Source: Beroe forskalii (lineage: Eukaryota; Ctenophora; Nuda; Beroida; Beroidae). Taken from it: a stretch of DNA of 64,000 bases. Below the pieces are notes generated by a model, which did not search any database, had not been told where the DNA came from, and saw nothing but the letters and a program-made list of their open reading frames with translations. How positions within the stretch are numbered: the stretch's first letter is position 1; each line of letters starts with the position of its first letter. The stretch lies in NCBI GenBank assembly GCA_011033025.1, contig WFMF01000157.1, forward strand, positions 1-64,000. The letters run 5' to 3'. A program made the position numbers and the translations under genes. Of the stretch, positions 9,862-14,036 are shown piece by piece.

Positions 9862-10291
9862 ATGTCCGGAGAAAGGAAGGCAGTTATCAAGAATGCCGAC
9901 ATGGCAGAAGATATGCAGCAAGACGCCGTGGAGTGTGCCACTCAGGTACTTTAAAGTTATACTCTGAAATCAATATTTGTTTGATTTTAAATTTGCTGAA
10001 ACTAAGAATTCTGGGTTGTATGAATCAATATCCAATCTACCGCCCTCTTAGTCCTACACTATTTTCTTGCGAGATTGTTGAATTAAATATTCCATTGCTC
10101 AGGCTCTAGAGAAGTACAACATCGAGAAGGACATTGCTGCGTACATCAAGAAGGAATTCGACAAGAAGTACAACCCCACATGGCATTGCATTGTGGGCCG
10201 AAACTTCGGCTCCTACGTCACCCACGAGACCAAGCACTTCGTTTACTTCTACCTCGGCCAGGTTGCCATCCTTCTCTTCAAATCCGGATAA
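9862..10291 (+). CDS. DYNLL1: Dynein light chain LC8, tandem copy 1
   Basis: Small dimeric hub protein of dynein motors, binding short linear motifs in many partners. Exons 9862-9945 (28 codons, [20 protein letters not shown]...) and 10103-10291 encode 90 residues ending [12 protein letters not shown]. It matches LC8 along its whole length; vertebrate LC8 is 89 residues, the extra one being near the N-terminus. The conserved [20 protein letters not shown] core is intact. The ATG is preceded by a splice acceptor (gagttctag, 9853). A polyadenylation signal lies 119 bp after the stop. It is the first of three near-identical copies. Assignment to LC8 is secure; LC8-1 versus LC8-2 cannot be told. 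Confidence 0.95.
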
Positions 10292-10409
10292 ACTGAAACG
10301 GACAGATCCCAAGGACTTCTTTTGATATTTTGTTGATGTCCAGAGCTTCTTGCCATGGTCAGGCCATGGTCCCAGAGAGATAATTCGACGGCCATGAGTT
10401 GTGAAAGTT

Positions 10410-10415
10410 AATAAA
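10410..10415 (+). terminator. Polyadenylation signal of LC8 copy 1
   Basis: AATAAA 119 bp downstream of the copy 1 stop codon, in a position usual for a short 3' UTR. It suggests copy 1 can end its own transcript. The following 10416-10831 is AT-rich with nothing recognisable until the next acceptor. Confidence 0.55.
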
Positions 10416-10831
10416 AGTGGGTTTGATATGGACTGATCAAGATAAGCATGGTCCTAATCGGATGCATTCCCCAAGATTAACTTCACTGCCAAATTTCAAA
10501 ATATAAGTTAGCAATCACGTGATTGCACATTTATTTTTAACTGATGTTTTTTATTGTATTAATTATCTAATTTGAATTTAATTAACACGTTTCTAAGTTA
10601 TTTTAGCATGCTGCTTCATTCGTCCAAACTTTCTAACTGAAGTCTTTTTGCTTGGCATTGGTCTTAACTTAGCTCCACTGCACTAAATTCATAGCAGTGA
10701 TCAGTTTGCATCGCTTAACTTAAAAGTTCTGACCAATTTATGTGATTATTTGTGTCAATTCACTTCAAAGACTTATTCTAAATCCAATTCATTATTCTAA
10801 CATCGAATCTAACTGAGTTCTAGCTATCACT

Positions 10832-12914
10832 ATGTCTGGAGAAAGGAAGGCAGTTATCAAGAATGCCGACATGGCAGAAGATATGCAGCAGGACGCCGTG
10901 GAGTGTGCCACTCAGGTGAGAATTTTTCATCGTCTATCCTTGAAATCATCGATAACTCATCGACAAACATTCTCTTGTTCTTGAAATTCTCGATACTTCT
11001 TTCCACCCCAAGTCCCATTCTACTCACTGCGCGGTGCTGCCAATATATGCTTGACCCCCATGCTTTCTTCCCGCCAATTTTACATGCTCTACACATTCCA
11101 CAATCTTCTGTGTGCTACATTATCTCACTGAACATATCATCAGCTTATACATTATCTAGTTACTGTTACACCCAGTTCGTGACGAATGGAATTTACTTAC
11201 CTTAGGGATCGTTCACATATTACATAATCAATTTTTGGGCATTTTTTACCCCCCTCCCCCCCTCCGTAATCAAACGTAATCATGGCCAAACCCCCCCTCT
11301 TTTTCGGAAAATATTACGTAATCATGGCCCAACCCCCCCTCTCCTTCATTTTTTGACGTCACCAAAAACTATATTAACTGACAAAAATTAGAACAGTATC
11401 GTGTGTTTCAATTCAATCATCAACATCATCGACTTGAAGATGACATTCAAAGCTTCATTTAGTTTTTCCACGGAAATCTCGCCTACGACAACTCCTCTGA
11501 CAATGAGATGGACACCTCCTCCTCTTTCTCTTCCTCCAACGCATCCTCATCTGCTCATCATCCTCCTTTACCTCCAACAGATCATCCTCCTCCTCCTCCT
11601 CTACACCTGAGGCCCCCAGTTCCATTAAAGAGCCAGAAGTCAACGTCTTGGTCCCACCTCAACCTCCTTCAAAACCGATGGAACCAAAGATCAGTATCCG
11701 TGTCCTGCTCATCTGCCACCAAAGCCGACAGAACCCAATCCAGATCAGCCCTAGCCCCTAAGTGCCAGATCAGAGTCTGGCAACTTCACAGACAACTGCA
11801 GCTTCCTACACATTCATCAAAAAGATTGATTCCTGGATAATGGAGCTACGGATGTACGCAAAGACCTGCTCTGGCATCAACTCTAGAGCTCTAGGGAAAG
11901 AAAGGCCTCCGAAGTCCGAAGTCCGAACCTCTGATCAAGCACAGAGCAGCAAACCTTATATACAAAGAGGCACTGAAGTGGTTTGGAAGAGTTCAACGAA
12001 TGGAGTACATCCATCCTATAAGTATAAGTCCTCTACGGGCAGCACTAAAGGAACTATACATTCTGAACCATATTGAGTTAAAGTAGATCATGTTTTAATC
12101 ATAATTATGAAATTTAGACAATTTTTTCTGCAAATGGTTAATTTTTGGTAATAAAAATTCGGATATCCTTTATATTTTCATAAAAAATCCTTGAAATTTT
12201 CATGAAAATTCTTGAAATTTTCATGAAAATTCTTGAAATTTTTATGAAAATTCTTGAAGTTTTCATGAAAATTCGTGAAATTTTCATAAAAATCCTTGAA
12301 ATTTTCATGAAAATTTAGATATTCTGATTACGTAATCATTGGCCAAACCCCCCCCCCCCCCCCCCTCGTAATCAAACGTAATCATTTGGAAACCCCCTCC
12401 CCCCCCTCGGCTGATTACGTAATATGTGAACGATCCCTTAGTACATGAAATTAAGAACTCCGAAAATTAAGAACGCACATTATTAGGCAACACCAAATTA
12501 AGCATTTTTCATAGCTATTTTGCTTATTATCTATCATATCAATTTTTGACGTTACACCAAATTAAGCATTTTTGCGGCCTGAGTGCTTAATTTTCTGCTT
12601 ACTTAATTTCATGTACTAAGGTATCTCTCCTTGGACCTTGTACTACATTACGTATCAAATTATCTGGTGTTAAATGTACAGTGCACACTGCTGATACATT
12701 ACCTTGACATTTCATGCCCACTCAGGCTCTAGAGAAGTACAACATCGAGAAGGACATTGCTGCGTACATCAAGAAGGAATTCGACAAGAAGTACAACCCC
12801 ACATGGCATTGCATTGTGGGCCGAAACTTCGGCTCCTACGTCACCCACGAGACCAAGCACTTCGTTTACTTCTACCTCGGCCAGGTTGCCATCCTTCTCT
12901 TCAAATCAGGATAA
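10832..12914 (+). CDS. DYNLL1: Dynein light chain LC8, tandem copy 2
   Basis: Same protein as copy 1. Exons are 10832-10915 (84 nt) and 12726-12914 (189 nt), with the same phase and border positions. Differences from copy 1 are a few silent bases, such as AAATCAGGA instead of AAATCCGGA before the stop. The splice acceptor context ctgagttctag before the ATG is also kept. The 1.8-kb intron is unrelated to those of copies 1 and 3 and holds the Harbinger-type element 11205-12437 and the MITE 12441-12616. Copy-specific expression cannot be judged from sequence. The region 12915-13579 after it is plain AT-rich DNA. Confidence 0.93.
11205..12437. mobile_element. Non-autonomous PIF/Harbinger-type element with TTA target duplication
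   Basis: The ends GGGATCGTTCACATATTAC (11205) and GTAATATGTGAACGATCCC (to 12437) are perfect inverted repeats, flanked on both sides by TTA. Three-base TWA target duplication is the known hallmark of PIF/Harbinger. Subterminal copies of cgtaatcaaacgtaatcat lie inside both ends. I see no transposase; internal frames are short and proline/serine-rich. It lies within the intron of LC8 copy 2. Confidence 0.8.
12172..12312. repeat. 21-bp tandem repeat inside the Harbinger-type element
   Basis: About seven units of ttgaaattttcatgaaaatt with single-base changes. Each unit is itself nearly palindromic (aattttcatgaaaatt). It sits near the right end of the transposon. Confidence 0.8.
12441..12616. mobile_element. 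176-bp MITE with 15-bp inverted repeats and TA flanks
   Basis: GTACATGAAATTAAG at 12441 is mirrored exactly by CTTAATTTCATGTAC ending at 12616, with TA on each side. TA duplication suggests a Tc1/mariner-type origin. Its left TA falls in the TTA duplication of the Harbinger-type element, so the two elements abut exactly. Internal copies of accaaattaagcattttt are present. Confidence 0.75.
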
Positions 12915-13579
12915 ACTCTGGACAGAGGCTCTATGCCAGATATGTTTGTTCCATTCCATGATGTTTCCATAGCAACAGGAATTTAAATCAGATAGCAACA
13001 CCTCACAAGTCACACAGACCTTGAGAAGCGTTGAGATTCCCCAGACGTTCAGAGCAAAACGAATATGTCAGACTTTGCAATCCCCCAGGATACATTCCTT
13101 AGCCAGGACCAAAGAACTGATTCCTGTGCCCCATATTCTATTAAATGAATTATTGGAAGGTCTTCAGTCCTCATTATATGGCACATTTAATTTATTTAAC
13201 AGGACAATGTGAATTTTATTCAGATCATACTTGCAAGAACATTGTTTTATGCTTCACAGTTTCAGCTTGTCTTTTTGATCAATATTCGGGATTTCCGATT
13301 TAAAGTTTCTAAATTTCTTGTAACAGTGGTTATTGATTCCCTACATTCTATTTCAGATCGAATAAATCATTATCGTGTCATTTTCTCTCAGCTACATTTC
13401 TATTATAAACGGTTAGATATTTCTACTTGGCATTAGATTAATATGCTGACGTACTTTTTTTGAAGTTTAGAGCTGATTTTTACCCAAATAAGTAGATTTA
13501 TATTTCTTGACTTTTTCATTAACCATTCAATCGATCGAAAATGTTTGCCTAATACAATCAAATTTGAGTAGCTATCACT

Positions 13580-14036
13580 ATGTCTGGAGAAAGGAAGGCA
13601 GTTATCAAGAATGCCGACATGGCAGAAGATATGCAGCAGGATGCCGTGGAGTGTGCCACTCAGGTAAGCTTTTGGGGCATTCAAATAGGTCTTTTTTTCA
13701 GAATTACCCCGCTAATATTTCTCTTAGTTTTGTTCATTTCTTAGTTTTGTATTTCTCTTGGTTATGCATTTGGTAGAGCATTGGAGAACATTGCCTTGTT
13801 TCATTGCGCTACTGAAACTCGCACTCACAGAACTCCTCCCCACTCAGGCTCTAGAGAAGTACAACATCGAGAAGGACATTGCTGCGTACATCAAGAAGGA
13901 ATTCGACAAGAAGTACAACCCCACATGGCATTGCATTGTGGGCCGAAACTTCGGCTCCTACGTCACCCACGAGACCAAGCACTTCGTTTACTTCTACCTC
14001 GGCCAGGTTGCCATCCTTCTCTTCAAATCCGGATAA
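13580..14036 (+). CDS. DYNLL1: Dynein light chain LC8, tandem copy 3
   Basis: Exons 13580-13663 and 13848-14036 encode the same 90-residue LC8 protein. The intron is only 184 bp and unrelated in sequence to the other two. The acceptor context before the ATG is shortened (tttgagtag, then ctatcact) but still has an AG eight bases upstream. The coding exons differ from copies 1 and 2 by only a few silent changes (for example GATGCC for GACGCC). Confidence 0.93.

Follow-up and report, generated by a model that had tools for sequence, protein, structure and literature searches.

Introduction

Gene conversion between related genes is usually reported for exons and may be impeded by the faster divergence of introns, according to an excerpt of a review of conversion in Caenorhabditis, which also notes that in C. 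elegans the converted stretches often take in introns (PMC3966223); introns were converted as well in mammalian gene pairs (excerpt of PMC2720389). Here we describe LC8 genes of the ctenophore Beroe forskalii, three of which lie in tandem in the first 64 kb of contig C200 (WFMF01000157.1, assembly GCA_011033025.1; this stretch is referred to as the window). Exons are homogenised both in the Caenorhabditis cases and at LC8, but the LC8 blocks are only 84 and 189 nucleotides (nt) long, and one copy resides on a separate contig. Excerpts of further publications describe similar cases. Arabidopsis lyrata RPL9B and RPL9C combine high coding identity with a lack of intron identity, read as conversion (PMC4679983), as at LC8, although they form a linked plant ribosomal protein pair whose identical block takes in 167 bp upstream. 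For avian W-linked genes, the authors suggest exon-specific gene conversion together with intron turnover (PMC4278454), a likeness to LC8 that is limited by the sex-chromosome setting and by the use of transcriptomes instead of intron alignments. In Daphnia pulex, parallel intron gain yields unrelated introns at the same site within near-identical exons (PMC4202315), as seen in LC8; the Daphnia sequences, however, are alleles of one locus, whereas the flanks of the LC8 genes are unrelated too.

Exon-confined homogenisation beside unrelated introns is already a known kind of event, and what is unusual here is the shortness of the blocks. In one library of open-licence papers, we found no paper on gene conversion in LC8 gene families by title or abstract start, and none with the exact phrase "complementary DNA (cDNA)-mediated gene conversion" in its short form, cDNA-mediated gene conversion. 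We observed exon identity beside unalignable introns, clustered silent differences, and mosaic exons in other gene families. From these we infer that the three genes of the window and one further copy are, very probably, four old LC8 paralogs whose exons have been overwriting each other by ectopic gene conversion, while their introns and flanks drifted.

Results

Three tandem LC8 genes and a fourth copy

The three LC8 genes of the window (c1, c2 and c3) are arranged head to tail on the forward strand and span 9862–14036. Each has an 84-nt and a 189-nt coding exon, with a single GT-AG intron between them after codon 28 (CATQ/ALEK, Q28/A29). The features are as follows:

9843–9861, forward strand: 19 nt before the c1 ATG, common to c2, read as a probable 3′ splice site (TTCTAG) plus an 8-nt 5′ untranslated region (UTR), CTATCACT
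9862–9945, forward strand: c1 coding exon 1, 84 nt; silent differences from c2 and c3 at coding sequence (CDS) positions 6 and 60, and from c3 also at 63
9946–10102, forward strand: c1 intron, 157 bp, GT-AG; matches itself only in the genome search
10103–10291, forward strand: c1 coding exon 2, 189 nt with stop
10813–10831, forward strand: the same 19 nt as in c1, before the c2 ATG
10832–10915, forward strand: c2 coding exon 1, 84 nt
10916–12725, forward strand: c2 intron, 1810 bp, GT-AG
12717–12725, forward strand: last 9 nt of the c2 intron, CCCACTCAG, common to c3 (13839–13847)
12726–12914, forward strand: c2 coding exon 2, 189 nt; has another base than c1 and c3 at CDS position 267
13569–13579, forward strand: last 11 nt before the c3 ATG, TAGCTATCACT, common to c1–c3
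13580–13663, forward strand: c3 coding exon 1, 84 nt; 0 differences over 84 nt from exon 1 of the fourth copy (contig C536)
13664–13847, forward strand: c3 intron, 184 bp, GT-AG; matches itself only in the genome search
13848–14036, forward strand: c3 coding exon 2, 189 nt; 0 differences from c1 exon 2

The three products are identical, at 90 amino acids, and match the Pfam family PF01221 with 148.1 bits (gathering score 29.1) over residues 6–89 of 90; the best PDB match was dynein light chain 2 (1pwj). Compared with LC8-type dynein light chains (PF01221), the window protein is ordinary, without notable departure.

We searched the genome (216 Mb, 1134 contigs) with the PF01221 family model and the LC8 coding DNA, treating the counts as lower bounds. 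This revealed a fourth complete copy (c4, G000:C536:109009-109432), which the initial annotation had missed; it lies about 119 kb from the three tandem genes if C200 and C536 abut at their starts, and further away otherwise. c4 differs from c1–c3 by 6–9 nucleotides, one of which causes an I84-to-V change. Neither the 152-bp intron of c4 nor its flanks are clearly related to those of c1–c3. The DNA search gave at least 8 exon matches, corresponding to four genes (c1–c4) with an intron in each, and neither search found an intronless LC8 copy. Two further PF01221 matches, L007 (C714) and L008 (C869), were rejected as LC8 copies, as their translations differ and they went unmatched in the LC8 DNA search. 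L008 (G000:C869:373991-374113; 36.8 bits, a 41-position match with two internal stops) is possibly a decayed relative of the DYNLL superfamily.

Near-identical exons beside unrelated introns and flanks

The coding sequences of c1–c3 differ by 3 (c1–c2), 3 (c1–c3) and 2 (c2–c3) nucleotides, all of them silent, with CDS positions 6, 60, 63 and 267 variable. Across all four copies, exon identity is 97–99%. The proportion of differing silent sites (pS) was 0.056 (c1–c2), 0.056 (c1–c3) and 0.037 (c2–c3), and silent divergence (dS) was 0.038–0.058 within c1–c3 and 0.078–0.142 against c4. We judged the similarity of introns and 400-bp flanks against 300 shuffles per pair, using six pairs with c4 included. 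None of the six intron pairs scored beyond the 95th percentile of the shuffles. Upstream, c1–c2 beat every shuffle (1 of 6 pairs), owing to the 19 nt right before the ATG, and c1–c4 reached P = 0.05 via a 12-nt match (TCTGGCCAATGA). Downstream, none of the six pairs beat the largest shuffle, and two had P < 0.05 (c1–c4, 0.043; c3–c4, 0.027). An exon dS of 0.038–0.142 set against 0 of 6 alignable introns is the behaviour expected of the converted part of genes under concerted evolution.

These results bear out the description of the locus in the initial annotation. Its statement that the exons differ by only a few silent bases is exact to the base, the introns of 157, 1810 and 184 bp are indeed unrelated, and the flanks, said to share almost nothing, have only 11–19 nt before the ATG in common within c1–c3. 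Its treatment of the copies as separate genes also stands; assembly duplicates are excluded because the introns differ, and the exon matches of the genome search resolve into four genes.

Clustered silent differences among the copies

The remaining differences between copies are unevenly placed. Between c3 and c4, 70 consecutive silent sites of 87 agree, after which 5 of the last 17 differ (longest-run permutation P = 0.0009, for one pair of six that was picked after looking); exon 1 is the same in both over 84 nt, yet the sequence just outside it differs. When c1–c4 were taken together, 52 consecutive silent sites were invariant (permutation P = 0.004). Furthermore, at just two sites, positions 63 and 267, each of the four possible combinations occurs in one of the four copies, which needs exchange or repeated mutation. 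The shared 9 nt at the intron ends of c2 and c3 match the end of exon 1 over 8 nt (CCACTCAG); the introns of c1 and c4 do so over 5 nt only.

Actin and alpha-tubulin families

An actin search returned 65 matches, from which we compared six genes (L055–L060) on five contigs (C173, C192, C198, C162 and C343) in 15 pairs. First-exon dS was 0.04–0.14, while only 2 of 15 pairs beat the largest shuffle in the intron after the first exon, and 2 of 15 in the 120 bp upstream; the intron pairs L058–L059 and L059–L060 passed the 95th percentile without beating the largest shuffle. With L061 and L062, which stand outside these 15-pair counts, 2 of 28 intron pairs beat the largest of 100 shuffles, and one extra pair (L058–L061) did so upstream. 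Blast blocks mostly end at or near exon edges, save where a pair has an intron or upstream sequence that can be aligned. Silent divergence within one pair, L056–L057, varied over five blocks (0.10, 0.20, 0.65, 0.40 and 0.16).

Intron positions also vary among the actin paralogs L055–L060 (codons 167, 213, 244, 267 and 307). L057 is without the introns at codons 213 and 267 that are present in L055, though the first introns of both align. These differences suggest repeated intron loss or gain beside exon homogenisation. At L059 (C192), no GT donor was seen near codon 244, unlike its sister L056; the gene may be damaged or may use a non-canonical splice site, or the splicing script may have missed the donor.

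We also compared six genes, presumably alpha-tubulins, out of 71 tubulin matches. They are overall far less homogenised than LC8, differing at 14–42% of silent sites. For the first intron, none of the 15 pairs beat the largest shuffle, and for the second only one did (L082–L083), although blastn blocks spanned one or more introns in 8 of the 15, at 77–83% overall identity. Silent divergence between L082 and L084 was 0.05, 0.35 and 0.46 by exon. Exon-by-exon mosaics of this kind are the expected trace of conversion tracts, not of uniform codon selection, and LC8 seems to be one instance of a process that is more widespread in this genome.

Neighbouring features in the window

The c2 intron holds a segment of some 1.2 kb whose 41-nt inverted ends are 83% complementary (arms 11190–11230 and 12412–12452), adjoined by a smaller segment with 46-nt inverted ends (85%; 12432–12477 and 12580–12625). 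Together (11190–12625) they make up most of its 1810 bp and look like mobile elements. The same intron contains a 21-bp tandem array (12174–12315), and a further array lies just 3′ of c3 (14338–14619; 21-bp unit CAAGGCGTACGTACGTCCTTC, 13.7 copies, 92% match).

A motif that we take to be the RFX X-box (GTTNCCATNGNAAC) gave 22 matches with at most one mismatch at 12 places, with palindromes counted on both strands, compared with 1.7 expected in shuffles. A copy with one mismatch occurs near c4 (L003:772).

9320–9333, 12963–12976, 4769–4782, 20149–20162 and others: X-box-like motif sites, with perfect ones upstream of c1 and c3

As a sign of ciliary regulation of LC8 the motif was set aside as a hint only, being too common in the window to say much. 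Elsewhere in the window, reverse-transcriptase-like open frames, by eye typical of non-long-terminal-repeat retrotransposons, occupy 37883–39381 (reverse strand) and 62545–63541 (forward strand). Three open frames at 43818–45350 (reverse strand) repeat nearly one peptide and form a local repeat, and a BET-type gene with two bromodomain stretches and a BET domain (Pfam) lies at 35216–37082 (reverse strand).

Discussion

Probable exon-confined conversion between old paralogs

The LC8 pattern is best explained by the following sequence of steps. As old paralogs drifted, their introns, promoters and UTRs would have become unrecognisable as related, while protein conservation would keep the exons alike enough to pair. 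Ectopic (non-allelic) conversion could then repeatedly overwrite both coding exons and erase silent differences, with tracts stopping about where homology stops, namely at the exon edges. Under this scheme the exons would stay alike and the introns would not, because the tracts end at exon edges, and no targeting would be required, because only the exons remain similar enough to pair. Of the exon-targeted gene conversion suggested in the initial annotation, the confinement to exons is thereby retained, as indicated by the identity runs, the mosaic exons and the unalignable introns, and the targeting becomes unnecessary.

Several points weigh against this explanation. The conflict among the four site combinations involves two sites, and a single recurrent mutation could produce it. 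The invariant stretch from position 64 to 224 spans the exon junction, which DNA-level conversion on its own does not predict. At 84 and 189 nt, the blocks are small by the standards of ectopic conversion; for unlinked mouse sequences, 2.5 kb was needed for efficient conversion, as given in an excerpt of a review (PMC3966223). The copies are taken to be old because their introns, compared within one species, cannot be aligned. Finally, the control pair L005/L006 described below is a small (31 silent sites) and partial duplicate, whose upstream similarity stops at approximately 385–435 bp, where L006 becomes tandem repeat.

Alternative explanations

A recent origin of the LC8 copies would account for their exon identity, and the initial annotation had reasoned that simple recent duplication would leave similar introns. 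This premise was supported by L005 and L006, a DYNLL-superfamily pair (presumably DNAL4-like) located 62 kb apart on contig C368, whose compared exon of 168 nt has 2 silent differences over 31 sites (dS 0.067). In its adjoining intron, identity is 86.5% across the aligned portion of 500 bp, with about 400 bp alignable, and the 3′ flank is 95.8% identical over 500 bp, with similarity extending about 1.4 kb downstream. Because this pair and two actin pairs with first-exon dS of 0.09 and 0.10 keep alignable introns, introns can remain recognisable at LC8-level silent divergence in this genome; simple recent tandem duplication is therefore disfavoured, and the LC8 pattern is probably not merely its product. 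Calmodulin was rejected as a control family: in a single gene (C814) exon identity to the query reached 92%, and the other matches stayed at 81% or less. If, after a recent duplication, each copy had instead independently acquired an unrelated intron at one site, as in Daphnia, the introns would be expected to differ, and both the 8-nt direct repeat CCACTCAG flanking the c2 and c3 introns and the published parallel gain of unrelated introns with direct repeats (excerpt of PMC4202315) fit such a history. It would, however, require four gains at one site and leave the unrelated 5′ and 3′ flanks unexplained; similar flanks, as gain alone would leave, were not found outside the 11–19 nt before the ATG of c1–c3. 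Moreover, the c1 and c3 introns, the two that were searched, belong to no repeated family. We therefore regard intron gain as very unlikely.

Selection on codons or nucleotide sequence could also fix silent sites without any exchange among copies, and the initial annotation had proposed very strong codon selection. The LC8 protein is extremely conserved, and GC content at third codon positions is 0.71–0.72, compared with an overall GC of 0.31–0.40 in the c1–c3 introns. We calculated the expected agreement from the actin and tubulin codon frequencies of this genome (the first 504 nt of L059 included). Among c1–c3, 83–84 of 86 degenerate codons are identical (83 for c1–c2), far above the expected 51.3 (standard deviation 4.2, z 7.5–7.7), and c4 shares 78–81 of 85 with the others against 50.6 expected. 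c3 uses the commonest synonym in only 52 of 86 degenerate codons, and of its 34 non-commonest codons only two (codons 2 and 21) vary among c1–c3. Furthermore, the alpha-tubulin genes differ widely at silent sites, and silent divergence varies greatly from exon to exon inside a single actin or tubulin pair. Codon selection alone was rejected on these grounds, and silent sites fixed without exchange are a most improbable cause. Repeated retro-insertion or DNA insertion of exon cassettes, likewise put forward in the initial annotation, would explain why similarity is confined to exons, but retrocopies would lose the intron and bring a 3′ UTR. Neither was seen: all four copies keep their intron, the genome search gave no intronless copy, and nothing in the 3′ flanks exceeded the largest shuffle. 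Such insertion is scarcely credible here.

Possible templates of the proposed conversion

For ectopic conversion of LC8 exons, genomic DNA of a sister copy is most likely the template, a view we hold with some reserve. The 5′ 501-nt exon of actin is the most homogenised (mean pS 0.102, compared with 0.165–0.341 in smaller exons, in a table without L059 whose last block has 6 pairs, not 10, as the last exon of L060 lies outside its locus). The relation of actin exon length to homogenisation is not significant over five blocks (rho −0.7, P 0.19). The pairs c1–c2, c1–c3 and c2–c3 show 2, 3 and 1 silent differences per 15.7 sites in exon 1, compared with 1, 0 and 1 per 38.0 in exon 2, which points in the same direction as actin, toward a DNA template. 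The c3–c4 pair runs counter to this length trend, with 0 of 15.7 in exon 1 and 4 of 38.3 in exon 2.

Alternatively, reverse-transcribed spliced LC8 mRNA might overwrite the exons, with the intron kept when a tract falls within one exon. The invariant stretch crossing the exon junction would suit a cDNA template, as would the c2 and c3 intron ends that repeat the last 8 nt of exon 1, which a cDNA strand overrunning the junction might leave, although this match was spotted only after the fact. Recombination with cDNA can also remove introns in the way that L057 lacks two introns of L055 while their first introns align. Against such a template stand the lack of an intronless LC8 copy in the genome search, the LC8 3′ flanks, which are not homogenised, and the actin 5′ exon, whose strongest homogenisation suits an effect of homology length better than the 3′ bias that cDNA should give, though not significantly so over the five blocks. 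We consider a cDNA template unlikely. By extension, cDNA of spliced mRNA could be a routine germline conversion template for dispersed LC8, actin and tubulin exons, in some cases removing introns and in others copying the end of exon 1 into the 3′ end of an intron; we find this idea doubtful as well.

Significance

With its short blocks, a copy on a separate contig and parallels in actin and tubulin, LC8 serves well as a test case but does not amount to a new phenomenon. It illustrates cleanly, in a natural setting, how exons can evolve in concert, in blocks down to 84 nt and across contigs, while introns and flanks diverge freely. Exons homogenised in this way mislead the silent-site dating of gene duplications. 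The case allows the minimum homology for ectopic conversion to be tested, and DNA to be weighed against cDNA as template. Furthermore, with related patterns in three gene families, the process could be measured genome-wide.

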